This document shows, in pieces, positions 46,259-53,507 of a DNA stretch of 64,000 nt. This stretch comes from Paludisphaera mucosa. Its GTDB lineage: Bacteria; Planctomycetota; Planctomycetia; Isosphaerales; Isosphaeraceae. The stretch covers positions 2,852,001-2,916,000 of the forward strand of contig NZ_JARRAG010000002.1 in assembly GCF_029589435.1 (NCBI RefSeq), written 5' to 3'. Both the position numbers and the translations under genes were made by a program. Below the pieces are notes generated by a model. The model saw only the letters and a program-made list of their open reading frames with translations. It was not told the origin of the DNA and ran no database searches. Position 1 is the stretch's first letter. Each line of letters begins with the position of its first letter.

Positions 46259-47161
46259 ATGATCGATTACACGTTCCGCTACGATCCTTCGAACGGGCCT
46301 TCCTCCCCCCAGCCCGGGACGGCGGAGGAGGCCCGTCAGACGCTGATGGCCGGCAATCGTTCGTTCTCCGAATGGATGAAGTCGTGCCGCGCGGCCGACG
46401 GCGAGCACAAGCAGTTCGTCACGAACGCCAGCGGATTAAGCTCGATTCTGTCGTCCGAGGCCCACGAATTCCCGACGCAGAAGCCGTTCGCCGTCGTCGT
46501 CGGCTGTTCCGACGCGCGGGTGCCGACGGAGATGCTGTTCGGCCAGGGCTTCAACGACCTCTTCGTGGTCCGCAACGCGGGCAACGTCCTGGGCGAGGTC
46601 GCGATGGGGAGCATCGACTTCACGCTCCTGGCTCTCCGCGACAGCGTCCGCGTGATCGTCTCGCTCGGCCACACGAACTGCGGGGCGGTGAAGGGTGCGG
46701 TGAAGGCCTATCTGAACCCGGGGTCGTTCTGGTCGACGGATTATTCTCCCGAACTTCGGGCGATCTTCCAGGAGATCTTCGTGGCGGTCCGCGAGTCGGA
46801 CAACATGCTCCGGGAAGTCTGGGGACCTAGCGCCGCCACCATGCCGGGCTACGAAGACGCGCTGATCGAGTGCGCCGTCTGCCTGAACGCCGCCCACACG
46901 GCCCTGGCGATCCAGCAGGAGGTCGAGGAGACGGGCCACAAGGGGATCGACGTCCTCTACGGGGTCTATGACGTGCGGGTCCATCAGGTCTGCATGCCGA
47001 CGCTCCCCTATGAGCGATCGAACGCGGATCACGTCAATCTGGCCCACGCCCCCCGACGCCCCGAGGAACTCGCGGCCCTGGCGAGGGAGATCGTCACCGC
47101 GTTCAAGCCCGGGAATGCGGCCGCCCCGACGGGGGCGGTGGCGTGCGGGCCTCATCGCTGA
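46259..47161 (+). CDS. Beta-class carbonic anhydrase
   Basis: A 300-residue enzyme interconverting CO2 and bicarbonate. Zinc and active-site motifs: CxDxR in VVVGCSDARVPTE (Cys83, Asp85, Arg87) and HxxC in SLGHTNCGAVKGA. The stretch FVVRNAGNVLG is typical of beta-CAs. It has an N-terminal extension of about 75 residues and a C-terminal region with LYGVYDVRVHQVC beyond the usual core. No signal peptide, so cytoplasmic. It converges with the DAB-type operon; their 3' ends overlap by ten bases. Functional partnership is likely but they are transcribed separately. Confidence 0.93.
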   Translation: MIDYTFRYDPSNGPSSPQPGTAEEARQTLMAGNRSFSEWMKSCRAADGEHKQFVTNASGLSSILSSEAHEFPTQKPFAVVVGCSDARVPTEMLFGQGFNDLFVVRNAGNVLGEVAMGSIDFTLLALRDSVRVIVSLGHTNCGAVKGAVKAYLNPGSFWSTDYSPELRAIFQEIFVAVRESDNMLREVWGPSAATMPGYEDALIECAVCLNAAHTALAIQQEVEETGHKGIDVLYGVYDVRVHQVCMPTLPYERSNADHVNLAHAPRRPEELAALAREIVTAFKPGNAAAPTGAVACGPHR

Positions 47162-48630
47162 CGGCCGCCAGAACCGGCGGGCGGGGCTGGACGGACGTGG
47201 GCGACCGGCGGCGCGGGCCACGGGGCCGGTCGCGCCGCCTCGGCGACCCTCGCCCGCTCGGCCAGGAGCTGGAGGGCCGCGTGGTAGCGGCTCGTGACGC
47301 CCCACTGCGGGAACAAGCCGCCGCCGATGATCAGGAACGTCGTGATCATCACCGCGATCCGCTCCGGCCTCCGGATCCTCAGGTCGATCGAAGAGGAGGC
47401 CGACCTTCCGGCGAAGATCCGGAAGTACGCCTGGGTGACCGCCAGGCCGTTGAGCGCCGTGACGATCACGATGAGCGGCCCCACGAACGGCAGCGCCTGG
47501 ACGGCGGCCTCGACGATCAGCTCGATGCTGATGAACCCGGCGGTGCCGGGGAAGCCGACGCTCGCCAGCCCCGTGAGCAGGAAGAGCCCGGCCATCATCG
47601 GAATCTGGTCGTACAGCCCGAGGAACTCGGTCAGCAAGATCCGCCCCACCCGCGCCTCGACGCAGCGGAGGACCAGCCCGAAGCCGGTCAGCGACAGCGA
47701 GACCGACAGCCAGAGGCTCAGCGAGCCGGTCAGGCCGATCGGCGTGGCCGTCTCGATCCCGACCAGAACCAGCGACGAGTGGCTGAGGAAGATGTAGCAG
47801 AAGAACCGCCGCGCGTCGCGCTGGACGAGCGCCATGCCGGCGGCGTAGATGGCCGTGATCAGCGACATCACCGAGATGATCTGCAACGCCCACGTCGGTG
47901 CGACGGGCACCACCAGCCGCGTCACGCCAAACGCCGCGGTCATGGGCGTGACGAACAGCAGCGCCGTCCCGAACGAGGCGTGCTCGAACAGGTCCGTCAT
48001 CCAGCAATGGACAGGGACGACGCCGCCTCGGAGGAGCACGGCCAGGGTGAGCATCAAAATCGCCCACAGCGGCTGCTCCTGCGGGGTCGCCGCGCGTGAC
48101 ACTCCCATCTCTCCCAGGACGAGGAGGATTACGAACAGCCCCATGTGCGCGAGGTAGACGCGACTCGGTTGCCTTTGCTGGATCGACTCCAGGAACCGCG
48201 GCACTACGGCGAGGGCCATCATGGTCACGACCCCCCACGACGTCGAGGCTGAGAAGATCGAGAGCAGGATCGACTCGGAGATCAGCGTGCGGGGGAGAGA
48301 GAACTCCCGGAACTTGGTTCGCAGCGTGCTCAGGATCGTCAGGAAATTGAGGAGCGCCCCCAGCGGCATGAGCGGCGCGTTGAGGGCGTCGATCGCCAGC
48401 AGGTCGCGGCCCGTGAACTGCGACAGCGGATGCGAGGGATCCTGGGCGGTACGGGTGCCGAGATTCGCGAAGTCGGCCCACGCCCCCAGGGTGGCGAGCA
48501 GGGTCAGTGCCGTGATCGCCAGGGCGTGCCGCCGCGCGACCCGGGGGTCGCGTCGGAACTTGACCCAGATCGCGCCCAGCACCGGCAGAATGATCGCCAG
48601 TTCCAGCCAGGGGAATCGCATCGAGCTCAT
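47152..48630 (-). CDS. NuoM-like proton-conducting membrane subunit (third gene of DAB operon)
   Basis: A 492-residue integral membrane protein of the proton-antiporter family PF00361 (NuoL/M/N-like), with about 12-14 helices. It shows [20 protein letters not shown] and [20 protein letters not shown] where complex I has the lysine- and histidine-bearing channel helices, and [20 protein letters not shown]. The C-terminal part is Pro/Ala-rich. The start ATG at 48630 overlaps the stop of the upstream NuoL-like gene by four bases (ATGA), giving translational coupling. Most described DAB systems have only one PF00361 protein (DabB), so this extra subunit is notable. Probably contributes to ion coupling of the complex. 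Confidence 0.88.
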
Positions 48631-50045
48631 GACGGTTCCTCGATGGGCGGCGACGTCGCCTTCGAGACGACCTGATCGAGATGGCGGTGGCGTGCGTGAT
48701 CGGGAGGGCGGCTGCGACGCCCGGCGAGGATGTCGGTCCAGCCCCTCTCCATCCGGTCGCACCATCGGAAGCAGCGGACGAACGGACGGACGACGAACCG
48801 ATCGAGCGACGCGTCGAGCTGACCGCGGTCGATGCCGATTCGGTAGAGCCGCAGCCGCGTCTCGGGCGAAAGCCGCTGCTCGGTGACGCCCGGGACGTGC
48901 GGGATCGGGCCGCCGAGGGCGTTCTCCAGCAGTCGGTAGTCGTTGAGCAACGAAGGCGCCCGAAGCAGCTGGAGCGACCGCTGGCAGGCGTGGCCGATGA
49001 TGTGGATCAGCGCGACGTAGCGGAAGCCCAGGCCGATCTCGGCCGTGATCACGCCCACCTGCGTCAGCGAGGCGTACGCGAGCGCCGACTTGATGTCCGT
49101 CTGCACCCGGCCGGCGACGACGCCGAACAAGGCCGAGGCCGCGCCGATCGCCACCACGCAGGCGCAGAGAAGCCACGACGCGTTCAGGATCGGGCTCACC
49201 CGCAAGAGCAGATACGCTCCCAGGTGGACCGAGAGGGCCCCGTAGAACACGGCGCTCGACGGGGTGGGCCCTTCCATCGCCCGCGGCAGCCATCCCGAGA
49301 ACGGCACGAGCGCCGACTTCCCCGCGGCCGCGATCAGCAGCAGCAGCCCGACCCCGAAGGCCTGTCCGGGCGCGATGACCGTCTCCGACTGCGGCCAGGG
49401 TCCCGAGCCCGTGAAGGCCGCGAAGTCGCCCGCGCCCGACAGGTGGTGCAGCGTCAGGGCGGCGATCAGGAAGGCCGCGTCCGAGATCCGGTAAACGGTC
49501 CAGATCCGCTGCGCGTTGACGACGGGAGCGGAACGCTCGTGGAAGAAGGCCACAAGGAGCGCCGACGCCAGGCCCACCAGCTCCCAGCCGATGAACAGGG
49601 TCTCGATCGTCCCCGCGAGGGCCGCGACCACCATCCCCATCAGGAACACCGCGAAGTACAGGAAGAACCGGCGGTAGCCCGGCTCGCGATGGAGGTAGCG
49701 ATTGGCGAACGCACCGGTCACGCCGACCAGCATGAACGTCAGCGCCGAGAAGGGGACGGAGAGGCGGTCGAAGAGGAACTTGAGCCGGAAGTGGAAGTCC
49801 TCCGCTGGCAGGGCGACCCAGTCGCCGACCTCGACGGGCACCTCGCGATCCCCCGTCCAGAGCATCATCAGGAACATGGCGACGACCGAGAAGAGCCCGT
49901 AAGAGACGCACGACGCGGTCAGCCGCGCCATGGTCCGCTCGCTCAACTTCCGGTCGGAGAACGTCGCCAGCCCGAAGGTCGACAGCAGGAGCAGCGGGGC
50001 CCCGACGGCCCCCAGCCCGAAGAAGCGGGCGACCCATTCGTTCAC
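48627..50045 (-). CDS. dabB: DabB-like (NuoL family) proton-conducting subunit
   Basis: A 472-residue membrane protein with about 13 helices, matching PF00361 and the DabB/MpsA-type NuoL relatives: [20 protein letters not shown] with the conserved Glu, [39 protein letters not shown] with the key Lys, [20 protein letters not shown], and [20 protein letters not shown]. The GTG start at 50045 overlaps the dabA stop (GTGA), with CAGGAG upstream. In DAB complexes DabB couples cation flow to DabA, which hydrates CO2 to bicarbonate in one direction. The soluble C-terminal tail ([20 protein letters not shown]) is typical for the family. Confidence 0.9.
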
Positions 50046-53000
50046 GATCGAGGCTCCTGGCCCATGGCGGGGGCCGGCGACGCGGGAGGGGTGGGGACGA
50101 TCGAGGCGAACCCGAGGTGGTCGCGACACCCGCGATACCAATCGACCGAAGAGGGCGCCTTCGGCAGGTCGGGGACCGCTCCGTCGTAGCGTTCGAAGCC
50201 GTCGCCGCGGAACTGGTGGAGGACCGAGGCCTCGGGGTCGAGGGTCGCGATCCGGACCCAACCGTTGCGGACCATCTGGATCATGAAATCGTTCGCCTCG
50301 AGCACCCGGGTGAGCCGCTCCGGCGTGGTCTCGACGACGATGAGGATCCGGATCGGCTCGTGAAGCTCGACCATCTGCCAGGGTAGGCCGGGCCGCAGAT
50401 CGCTCGACGCGCCGTCCATCACCCCCAGGAGCGAGGTGATGTTGTGCGGCAGTTTGGACCCGCAGCCGTAGCCCGTCGGGTCGACGCGCGAGAAGTAATA
50501 TTCGAGGTTGATGCCGCCGCAGACGGGGAAGACCGCGCGGAGCAGCCCCGTGAGGATCGCGCCGTCCTCGTCCTGAGAGGCGTCGTACGAGGTGAGGAAC
50601 GAGCGGCGGTCGAGGAAGAGGCCCCGGGTCCGCGCCCTGCGGCCGACGACGCAAAGGGCGTTGGTCGCGTGGCCCAGCTCCGGACGGGTCTGCGACAGAT
50701 CCTCCGCCCTCCCCTCCACGTGCCGGACCGCGTCGTCGAACGACTGCGAGAGCGGCGCCGACTCGAAGCGGCGGCACCGCTCGTGAGCGTTCCGCTTGCG
50801 CGCCGCGTCGAGGGCGGCGGCCGCCTCCTCGAACCGGTGCTCGTGGGAGGACGGCAGCCGGTCGAGGTCGAAGAAGCCGACCGAGTCCTCGCAGGTGTTG
50901 TGATATCCGCCAACGAAATAGACGTCGTCGGGGATCGTCAGCCCGAGTCGTTCCAGGGCCAGCCGCACCCGCGGGTCGTTGGCCATCTGGGCGAAGGCGC
51001 GGGCGTTGGGTCCGCCCTGCGACCCGCCGCAGGCGCCGCAGTCGTAGGCCGCCTTCTGGGGGTTGTTCAGGCTCGACGAGCCGTGCCCCACGACCGCGAT
51101 CAGGGGGGCGAAGCGGTCGCGGTCGGTCAGACCGATCATCTTTAGACCGCCGGCGACCACGTCGGTCATCTCGGCGACCGTGAAGCCAAGGCCCCCGTTC
51201 TCAGGCCCCGGCTCCTGCTTGCCCCGCTCCAGGCGGAGTTGGGTGAGCGGCGGCGTCATGACCCGGTTCCAAAGGCCGCGGAGCCGCGCCGTGTCGCGTG
51301 GCAAAAGCACCCTGGCCAGCAGCGGCATGGTGGCGAAGGCGCCCAGCATGCCGGTCAGGACCCCGCCGAGGAACGTCCGCGACCCCATATGGACTCGATG
51401 CGCGAGCGTCCCGAACCCGCGTCTCATCCCCTCCTGGAATCGGCTCGCGCGGGTGAGCGAGCGGAACGACTCCTCGCGGACGAAGATCCTGGGCTTCACG
51501 TTGACCGGGCAGAGCGGCCGGAACTGGGCCTCGGCCACGCCCTTGTAGTAGATCGCCACGCCGAAGAAGCCGGCCATGCCGAAGGTTTCACAACGGGGCT
51601 CGACCTCCTCCAGATGCCGTCTCAGCGATTCCTCGCGCTCGTCGATGCAACAGACGACCTGGAAGAGCGGGGCCTGGTCGCCGGGTCGGTCGTCGTGCAC
51701 CACGGCGGGCCGGGCGGCCGGGCGGTGCGCCAGCAGGGCCTGCGCCGCCTTGAGCTGGTACCGACGCTCATAGGCGAGCTGGTAGACCTGCCTTCGTCCC
51801 AGGCCGTCGAACTCCTCGATCTCGGTCGCCAACCGGGTCCACTCGTCCTTCGAGAGCCTGGCCAGCTCCCTCGGGCTCCAGCCTCGGACCTGCGCCAGCT
51901 GGAAGACCAGGAACGCCCGACGGTCGACGCTGGCCCTCGGCGGGTGGGGACGCAGGCGGCCCAGGACGCGCCGCAGGTCGCGGAGGGGGACCGCCTCGCC
52001 GAGGAATTGCTCGGACGCCCAGGCGATGGCCAGCCGTTCGAGGAGCAAGCGGACGGCCACGTAATCGACCAGGGTGCCGGCGGGGGCGGGCCGAGCCGCC
52101 CATTCGGCGTTCGTCTCGAGCTGCCAGATGATGCCCGCCCAGCCCCGCAAGGCGAGCAGCGTGTGCCGGATGTAATCGAACGCCTCGGAGGCCGGGACTC
52201 CCAGCTCGCGGAGCGACTCGGCGATCGATTGCAAGGGCGTCATCCCTGCGGCCTCGATCCGCTTCAGCTCCCCCGGCAAGGGTTGGAGCCATTTGGCGAT
52301 TGGCTTCGCGTCTTTGTACAGTTCGCGAAACGCCCCGAAATAGCCTTGGTCGCGGTTCGGCAAGGCCCAGGCCGCGAACCCCTGGTCGAGGAACGCCGAG
52401 GAGAATCGGATCAGGTATTTGTGGACGAGCTGGTCCGTGTCGACGCCCGAGGCCGCCCGAAGGCCGTCGCGATGACGGAGCGGCGACGGGGCCGGAGGAT
52501 GTGCGCGTCGGACGCCGTGGGCCCCGTGGTGGCAGACTCGCCAGAGGAGCGTGAGCGTGAAGGCCTCCCAGGTCGCCTCGGTCCACTGCTTGACGCTCGC
52601 CCCCCGGAAGTCGCGCGACTCCAGGAGAACGTCGACCACGTCGCGAGCCGGCTTCTCTGGCCCTTCCCGGGAGCCGGCGTATTCCCGCATGATCCAGTGC
52701 CGGGTCTGGTCGATGAGCCGGCCGCGGGTCTCAGCGGGCGTCTCGGAGCGGAACCGCTGCAATGCGTCGGTCTCGGCGATGACCCACTGAAGCTCGGCGT
52801 CGCTTCCCGTACGGAGAGCATGTTCGAGCATGGCCAGCCGCAGGTGGTAGCGTGTGCCCATGAAGCCGATCAGCCGATCGGCCTCGTCGCCCAGGCTTTC
52901 CAGCAGCGCCCAGGAGAGATCTTCCGGGAGGATTCGGCCCCGGGCCAGCTCGCGACGAAAGTGGTCTTCGCTCAGGTACGGGTCGGAACCATACATCGAC

Positions 53001-53197
53001 GTCGCCGCGACGACGGCGCGCTCGAACGGCAGGTCCTCGAACGCGTGCAGGGTGTTGTGATGGACGAAGACCGAGATCGGCCCTTGCGACGGCAGGTAGT
53101 GCGCCGCGTGCTCGATCGAACGGGCCAGCAGCGCGAGGTGGGATTCGCCGTCGACGGCCGCGTGCGATTCAGTCGCCTCGACGTGTGTAGGACTCAC
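50042..53197 (-). CDS. dabA: DabA-like (DUF2309) inorganic carbon transport subunit
   Basis: A 1,051-residue protein if started at the GTG at 53197; the frame is open to 53416, but the first residues matching DUF2309 ([20 protein letters not shown]) lie just after this GTG. It carries the beta-CA-like zinc site known from Halothiobacillus DabA: Cys517 and Asp519 in [11 protein letters not shown], His705 in VVGHGSSS and Cys720 in [13 protein letters not shown]; the His-Cys spacing of 15 equals that of the studied protein. It is longer than typical DabA (about 800) because of extra N-terminal sequence. Member of the membrane-associated DAB complex that traps CO2 as bicarbonate in the cytoplasm. 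First gene of a three-gene coupled operon with its own promoter. Confidence 0.92.
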
Positions 53198-53479
53198 GAG
53201 TGGTCCGCTCCGGATCCTCGAGGAAGGAGACGCGGGCTCGACGCGCGGCCTGCCGCCGCGTCCAGGGGCGCAACCTTGAAGAACGTCATCGGTCTTCTTC
53301 TCGGTGGACGTCCAGGCGACGTCGCTAGCCGCGCCCAACCGAGATTCCGGGCCTCCGCTTCGGGGCGGACGGTTCCGAACGTCCGGCGGACGAGCGGAAT
53401 CCCATGATAACACCAATCATCTTCGTGCGTCCGGGAGGGTGGGAGGAACGCACGCGTCGATTCGACGTTACATGAAATG

Positions 53480-53507
53480 ATTTTAGACTTTCGGAGCCGG
53501 CTGTCAA
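53480..53507 (-). promoter_or_regulatory. Strong sigma-70-type promoter of the DAB operon
   Basis: Reading the minus strand: perfect TTGACA (complement of 53502-53507) and TAAAAT (complement of 53480-53485) with a 16-base spacer, in a pronounced AT-rich patch. The leader to the dabA start is about 270 bases. Confidence 0.75.

Follow-up and report, generated by a model that had tools for sequence, protein, structure and literature searches.

In a 64,000-nucleotide stretch of the Paludisphaera mucosa genome (NZ_JARRAG010000002.1, positions 2,852,001 to 2,916,000 of the forward strand; hereafter the window), we analysed an operon encoding DabA, a NuoL-like DabB and a second antiporter-like protein of the NuoM kind, referred to below as the third protein. 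Systems of this kind were reportedly named DABs by Desmarais et al. in 2019. The operon probably encodes a three-subunit dissolved inorganic carbon (DIC)-accumulating complex (DAC, or DAB type) in which the third subunit completes the proton path. A first-pass annotation of the window had proposed a locus of the DAB type in which a second antiporter-like gene is joined on through GTGA and ATGA overlaps, which the sequence and Pfam searches confirmed. What is new here seems to be the anatomy, namely a short DabB and a third protein that has lost channel residues, the architecture itself being already in print.

Anatomy of the three proteins

The DabA protein of the window matches PF10070 with 785.8 bits over all 747 profile positions. 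Alignment to DabA2 of Halothiobacillus neapolitanus places its zinc-site residues at Cys517, Asp519, Arg521, His705 and Cys720, bearing out the earlier statement that they are intact. Among 85 sequences, with gaps and misses counted, these positions are kept in 80 (Cys), 81 (Asp), 79 (Arg), 83 (His) and 83 (Cys) cases, the exceptions being two to four gaps per position plus one Trp, one Lys and one Gly. Residue counts for DabA, DabB and the third protein pool two samples that share a few loci, and the main counts exclude DabA and DabB sequences under 400 residues and third proteins under 300. In the cryo-electron microscopy (cryo-EM) structure of DAB2, the DabA2-DabB2 system of H. neapolitanus, the finger residue Glu444 stands in for NuoL Lys399 and Asp400 and is required, as are both His260 and Lys347 of DabB2 (PMC13144422). 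The finger hairpin of the window DabA has no acid, the Glu444 equivalent being gone, and an acid occurs in only 2 of 81 finger segments of the three-gene type, both times close to a segment end; canonical planctomycete loci usually retain the finger Glu. Two canonical DabA proteins (L091 and L093) were seen to carry Gly at this position, whose Glu is essential in DAB2, and at one locus (L080:13361-16516) a stop interrupts dabA, which may reflect a draft error or decay.

The DabB protein of the window (PF00361, 120.2 bits; PF00662, 32.3 bits) has 10 hydrophobic segments and is missing the four C-terminal transmembrane (TM) segments of canonical DabB. Ten canonical planctomycete DabBs have 12-14 hydrophobic segments, four of them past about residue 350, versus 9-11 in 20 DabBs of the three-gene type; of another 69 relatives, 55 show 10 segments, and a segment past residue 350 is present in 11. 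A sequencing or annotation error was considered and rejected as the cause of the short form, as 93 DabBs of at least 400 residues from two samples align, most of them called at 430-520 residues. An AlphaFold2 model (predicted local distance difference test score, pLDDT, 86.8; 60 sequences) shows 11 long helices up to residue 377, followed by helices at 394-405 and 407-441. The solved chain with the highest Z score is NuoL (8e9g_L; Z 47.6, root-mean-square deviation (rmsd) 4.6, 410 residues aligned); model residues 4-444 align to residues 5-585 of this 625-residue chain and, because only 410 residues match across that span, the alignment skips a block of NuoL, the DabB tail in the model falling near the NuoL C-terminal helix. 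No DAB2 chain appears among the 50 structural matches listed for the DabB model, which says nothing against a likeness to DAB2. The equivalents of DabB2 Lys235, Ser256, Lys310 and His339 are kept in 93 of 93 DabBs and that of His343 in 89 (Asn in the other four), and Glu155, aligned with NuoL Glu144 and DabB2 Ile151, is Glu in all 93. One dabB gene (L083:8476-9773) is split across two frames, possibly through a draft error or decay.

The third protein (PF00361, 78.7 bits; 13 hydrophobic segments) has the NuoM model TIGR01972 as its best NCBIfam match, at 133.4 bits, under the cut-off of 263.8. Its AlphaFold2 model (pLDDT 90.8) aligns with NuoM (8e9g_M; Z 45.0, rmsd 2.2, 453 residues aligned) and with MrpD (7qru_D; Z 44.9, rmsd 2.5), so that a NuoM-like antiporter fold is predicted along the whole chain, and profile comparison gave E 7.7e-39 with NuoM (6 sequences) and 7.6e-15 with NuoL (2 sequences). 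A plain complex I NuoM was rejected, given the missed cut-off and the presence in this genome of separate complex I-like genes, two sets of NuoL-, NuoM- and NuoN-like proteins when grouped by mutual similarity (L001-L006).

Conserved residues are lost from the first half of the third protein, and the second half is the better conserved. NuoM residues are numbered here after PMC9271201, where Glu144 and Lys234 form an ion pair, Glu407 is homologous to NuoL Lys399, and NuoL Asp400 is the proposed proton exit. At the Lys234 position the window protein has Arg201 (Arg in 103/103 third proteins), at the Lys265 position Met230 (Lys in 0/103) and at the Glu144 position Ala139 (an acid in 0/71). The residue after the Glu407 position, Glu370, is Glu in 94 and Asp in 7 of 103 proteins and, given the homology of Glu407 to NuoL Lys399, corresponds to NuoL Asp400. 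Across 71 third proteins, four residues are invariant in 1-180 versus 40 in 181-466, and Gln270, Arg274, Arg275 and Arg327 are the same in all 71.

Distribution, gene order and fused relatives

A GTDB genome scan with the third protein was evaluated on the best 80 of 274 relatives, which carry titles that we take, from their genus names, to be planctomycete or are called plain 'bacterium', one being labelled Verrucomicrobia. In 78 of these 80 loci dabB lies directly upstream of the third gene, the two exceptions being a locus with only a dabB fragment (L140) and one at a contig edge (L166). In 66 of the 78 dabA is present too; the remaining 12 comprise eight contig edges and four loci (L156, L157, L160 and L162) without dabA there, and the pair in L162 sits behind open reading frames (ORFs) that, on inspection by eye, resemble flagellar genes. 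Spacings between dabB and the third gene are -4 or -1 in 54 of 78 loci; those between dabA and dabB are -4 in 27 of 66. In an independent search of 294 evenly drawn planctomycete genomes, PF10070 was present in 39; DabA loci were read in 35 of these (G153, G168, G217 and G292 were left out), and a third gene was found behind dabB in 20 of the 39 genomes (21 loci, G134 having two). In G065 DabA is seen only as a fragment on another contig, and in G191 the contig stops behind dabB, which leaves this genome without a verdict. The first-pass annotation had named lack of conservation of the third protein at planctomycete loci as an outcome that would count against it; these counts speak for its conservation. 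Among plasmids, DabA matches were below 60% identity and third-protein matches at about 23-27%, some annotated NuoM (among the 15 matches listed).

DabA and third-protein matches occur in all five Schlesneria-type genomes searched. In genomes of this type the genes are scattered: four (L156, L157, L160 and L162) hold a paired dabB and third gene without an adjoining dabA, and lone dabA genes occur as well (L210-L213, L215); the persistence of the pair suggests a dabB-third module. One Schlesneria-type metagenome-assembled genome (L216) has two full, converging gene sets. Elsewhere, in a genome that yielded no DabA (G054), a lone ORF (L109:7691-8659) comprises little more than the second half of a third protein.

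Some related systems combine both kinds of half in one chain. In eight systems from five loci (L092, L102, L103, L104 and L106), dabA comes first and is followed by a DabB of 625-666 residues, beside which no third gene was found; three of these loci (L102, L103 and L104, from genomes of one family) have two different dabA-dabB pairs back to back and divergent. In the sister group IIIa (four DabBs of 625-628 residues), the part behind helix 11 was assigned by hhalign to the NuoM/third-protein kind (third-protein profile, probability 97.5, E 6.9e-12; NuoM, 96.1, 3.4e-9; NuoL, 16.7), so that, judged by sequence, IIIa DabB carries a NuoM-type half. The eight most distant third proteins matched this part with E 2.8e-13. 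A closer kinship of this part with the third protein than with NuoM was considered and dropped: in the first comparison the profiles differed in depth (99 third-protein sequences versus 6 of NuoM), which accounts for the apparent closeness, and no clear difference was left at equal depth. In the 665-666-residue form the match of the end part is weak (44.7). A further pair of loci (L094:4891-7437 and L096:4921-7572) encodes DabBs of 848-883 residues, each a canonical-type DabB with a NuoM-like end half (E 2.3e-18 to NuoM), along with DabA proteins of about 1100 residues that keep the finger Glu. Four distant PF00361 proteins (L028, L031, L035 and L040) matched nothing, probably because of wrong-strand translation, and were excluded from the profiles.

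In a midpoint-rooted tree of 40 DabA sequences, the three-gene type and the sister group stand together with support 0.973, apart from canonical DabA. Tree-distance correlations over 70 loci, after dropping 3 near-duplicates from 73, were 0.917 for dabB and the third gene, 0.766 for dabA and dabB and 0.696 for dabA and the third gene; shared ancestry alone contributes to such values.

Locus layout, carbonic anhydrase and genome context

The features of the locus are listed in the table below. The promoter claimed in the first-pass annotation was recovered with 11 of 12 positions matching, one such site being found against a shuffle mean of 0.0 (sd 0.3). Inspection by eye showed a similar site, TTGACT-16-TAAGAT, ahead of dabA in Paludisphaera soli (L111), and a stricter promoter pattern had no match in either L110 or L111.

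Table 1. Features of the three-gene locus and its neighbour (window positions).
Feature	Position	Strand	Description
dabA	50042-53197	minus	GTG start, 1051 aa, PF10070
dabB	48627-50045	minus	472 aa, NuoL-like; helices 1-11 and a 35-residue helix (407-441)
Third gene, NuoM-like	47152-48630	minus	492 aa
GTGA overlap, dabA stop/dabB start	50042-50045	minus	read from sequence
ATGA overlap, dabB stop/third gene start	48627-48630	minus	read from sequence
Sigma-70-like promoter, TTGACA-16-TAAAAT	53507-53480	minus	about 280 bp upstream of dabA start
Beta-carbonic anhydrase gene	46259-47161	plus	300 aa, convergent with the operon

The beta-carbonic anhydrase (CA) gene does lie tail to tail with the operon, as first described, its 3' end overlapping the third gene by 10 bp. 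The protein matches PF00484 with 71.8 bits (cut-off 25.7) over profile positions 1-97 of 156 only, and CxDxR and HxxC, which we take to be the beta-CA motifs, can be read in its sequence. The CA was rejected as a fixed fourth component of the system: a match of at least 25 bits to the window CA occurs in only 13 of the 80 GTDB loci, a count that may miss more distant CAs, and in several arrangements. The gene is convergent as in the window in L110 and L111, downstream on the same strand in L120 and L158, divergent from dabA in L117, L136, L140 and L153, and 2.7-4.2 kb behind the third gene in L145, L148, L155, L172 and L177. In the phylum sample a CA gene is divergent from dabA in L073, L075, L076 and L078 and 2 kb off in L074. 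All seven CAs among ten proteins checked against Pfam match PF00484.

The P. mucosa genome (8.2 Mb, listed as 100% complete) has one phosphoenolpyruvate (PEP) carboxylase gene and four PF00484 matches; a profile search of it for RuBisCO (PF00016) gave no match; the first-pass annotation had noted no carbon-fixation gene in the window. The same genome holds a second DAB system, of the canonical dabB-dabA kind (L011:6901-11050; contig C2, about 392-396 kb), the DabA of which keeps the glutamate of the finger ('FVE').

A candidate proton path shared by two chains

Among the closest described systems are the 'clade C' operons found with COGNAT, in which ybcC (COG3002) lies upstream of a nuoL homologue and a NuoM gene (COG1008) is frequent nearby, as is COG0659 (PMC5700660, 2017). 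The gene order and the NuoM-family neighbour are those of the window operon, and the two probably belong to the same group; the suggestion that a three-subunit variant may be undescribed thus does not hold for the architecture. P. mucosa has two PF00916 (COG0659-type) genes, both beyond the window, and the clade C passages of PMC5700660 do not analyse the topology or channel residues of the NuoM protein. In the open-licence PMC literature searched, as far as its accessible text goes, we came across no description of a short DabB, of such residue losses or of a fused form. With DAB2 (PDB 9rd0), the window system shares the DabA family, the zinc-site residues and NuoL-like helices 1-11; DAB2, however, consists of two subunits, DabB2 having 15 TM helices, whereas the window system combines about 11 with an extra NuoM-like subunit, and it differs further in the lost Glu444, in Tyr and Arg in place of His260 and Lys347, and in Glu at the Ile151 position. 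DAB1 of the same organism (DabA1, DabB1 and hneap_0908) is likewise a three-gene DAC (PMC13144422), but its third protein is described there as a small hypothetical TM protein, which sets it apart from a 492-residue protein with a NuoM fold. MpsAB(C) of Staphylococcus aureus resembles the window system in having DabA and DabB homologues in a non-autotroph, and differs in that MpsC reportedly does not belong to the operon functionally (PMC8552792). Complex I shares the folds of both membrane subunits and the co-occurrence of a NuoL-like with a NuoM-like protein; in contrast, the window operon encodes no electron-transfer subunit, misses the NuoM cut-off and has changed channel residues.

We infer how the complex is assembled, where its protons pass and in which direction, and what it does for the cell from the order and conservation of the genes, the folds predicted for single chains, the absent helices, the lost residues and the half fused to DabB in the sister group. 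DabA would provide a zinc site hydrating CO2 to bicarbonate, and helices 1-11 of DabB would form the cytoplasmic-side half of a NuoL-like proton path. The NuoM-like third subunit would dock on DabB, perhaps through the 35-residue C-terminal helix of DabB, by analogy with NuoL, the lateral helix of which is long and amphipathic, residues inserted at a site between NuoL and NuoM lowering pumping (PMC3274701). What is missing from DabB and from the DabA finger would come from the second half of the third subunit, in which Glu370 is the likely exit-side acid. Proton influx along the proton motive force (PMF) would then drive one-way CO2 hydration, making the complex a vectorial carbonic anhydrase, and the bicarbonate may feed carboxylases (PEP carboxylase being present and RuBisCO not), while the adjacent beta-CA may equilibrate CO2 and bicarbonate. 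In its most specific form, which we put forward tentatively, as possible rather than probable, one channel would be split over two chains, a NuoL-type chain without its exit half and a NuoM-type chain without its entry half, with the finger Glu replaced by an acid of the second chain (Glu370) and the whole coupled to a CO2-hydrating zinc enzyme.

Several results weigh against a third subunit that completes the path of DabB. The replacements of DabB2 His260 by Tyr and Lys347 by Arg occur in 93/93 DabBs and the Ser316 position is Ala in 89/93, so that the half-path in DabB itself also differs from that of DAB2. Finger Glu loss is not peculiar to three-gene systems, since the canonical DabA proteins of L091 and L093 have Gly there ('FVGPVGL'). 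Only 8 of 103 third proteins have Glu at the NuoM Glu407 position itself, with the acid shifted one residue on, and the DabB tail matches the C-terminal part of NuoL weakly by sequence (probability 40.3, E 2.9e-4). The structure predictions of DabB and the third protein are of single chains only. When the fused part of IIIa was compared with profiles of equal depth (six sequences each), 4 of 10 draws of third proteins beat the 3.4e-9 of NuoM and 6 did not. Agreement between the trees is partial: the rank correlation of dabA and third-gene distances is 0.49 (70 loci), and the dabB and dabA trees share 23 and 18, respectively, of the 33 well-supported splits of the third-protein tree. Among Schlesneria-type loci, L209 has dabA-dabB without an adjoining third gene and L214 dabA-third without dabB.

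The alternative that survives best, which we nonetheless regard as unlikely, is that DabB and the third subunit provide two independent pathways, each moving an ion, so that more ions are spent per CO2, in line with a 2017 suggestion that the ion number may depend on how many membrane subunits there are (PMC5700660). The complete NuoM-like fold predicted for the third protein would suit such a role, but the protein lacks the NuoM Glu144/Lys234 ion pair and Lys265, and DabB lacks its C-terminal helices. The two different antiporter-like subunits of the first-pass annotation would suggest two pumps; with the C-terminal helices of DabB absent and conserved first-half residues lost from the third protein, one shared path fits better. 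A non-conducting scaffold or stabiliser, replacing the missing DabB helices structurally, would also explain the loss of first-half channel residues and would recall the instability of DAB2, which required a fusion for cryo-EM (PMC13144422). We doubt this reading as well, and rank it next, as the second half of the third protein is the more conserved, with an acid at Glu370 in 101/103 sequences and with the invariant Gln270, Arg274, Arg275 and Arg327 set out above.

A role in ion-coupled bicarbonate import or in pH/Na+ homeostasis, of the sort argued for MpsAB, which has been described as a bicarbonate transporter, is improbable in place of a vectorial carbonic anhydrase. The DabB Glu155 shared by all 93 sequences would fit such a function and, as it sits at the DabB2 Ile151 position, the coupling may differ from that of DAB2; against this reading, DabA retains its zinc site and the Asp-Arg dyad. 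That the third gene is a dispensable passenger is scarcely credible: dabA does stand without it in L209-L213 and L215, but it is found in 20 of 39 DabA-bearing genomes, directly behind dabB in 78 of 80 GTDB loci and in all five Schlesneria-type genomes searched, and a NuoM-type half is fused to DabB in the sister group.

The account of coupling in DABs considered here rests on the DAB2 structure, in which the DabA finger Glu444 completes the channel (PMC13144422). The systems described here are a widespread natural variant without the finger Glu and the neighbouring DabB helices, in which another chain may take over, and they make the proposed coupling of protons to CO2 hydration directly testable. 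If the channel is indeed split over two chains, complementing complex I-type half-channels would constitute an evolutionary module, a sister lineage fusing both kinds of half in one chain. The variant also suggests that complex I antiporter halves are exchangeable between chains. For the organisms themselves, the variant suggests that planctomycetes without RuBisCO invest in an energised supply of bicarbonate.

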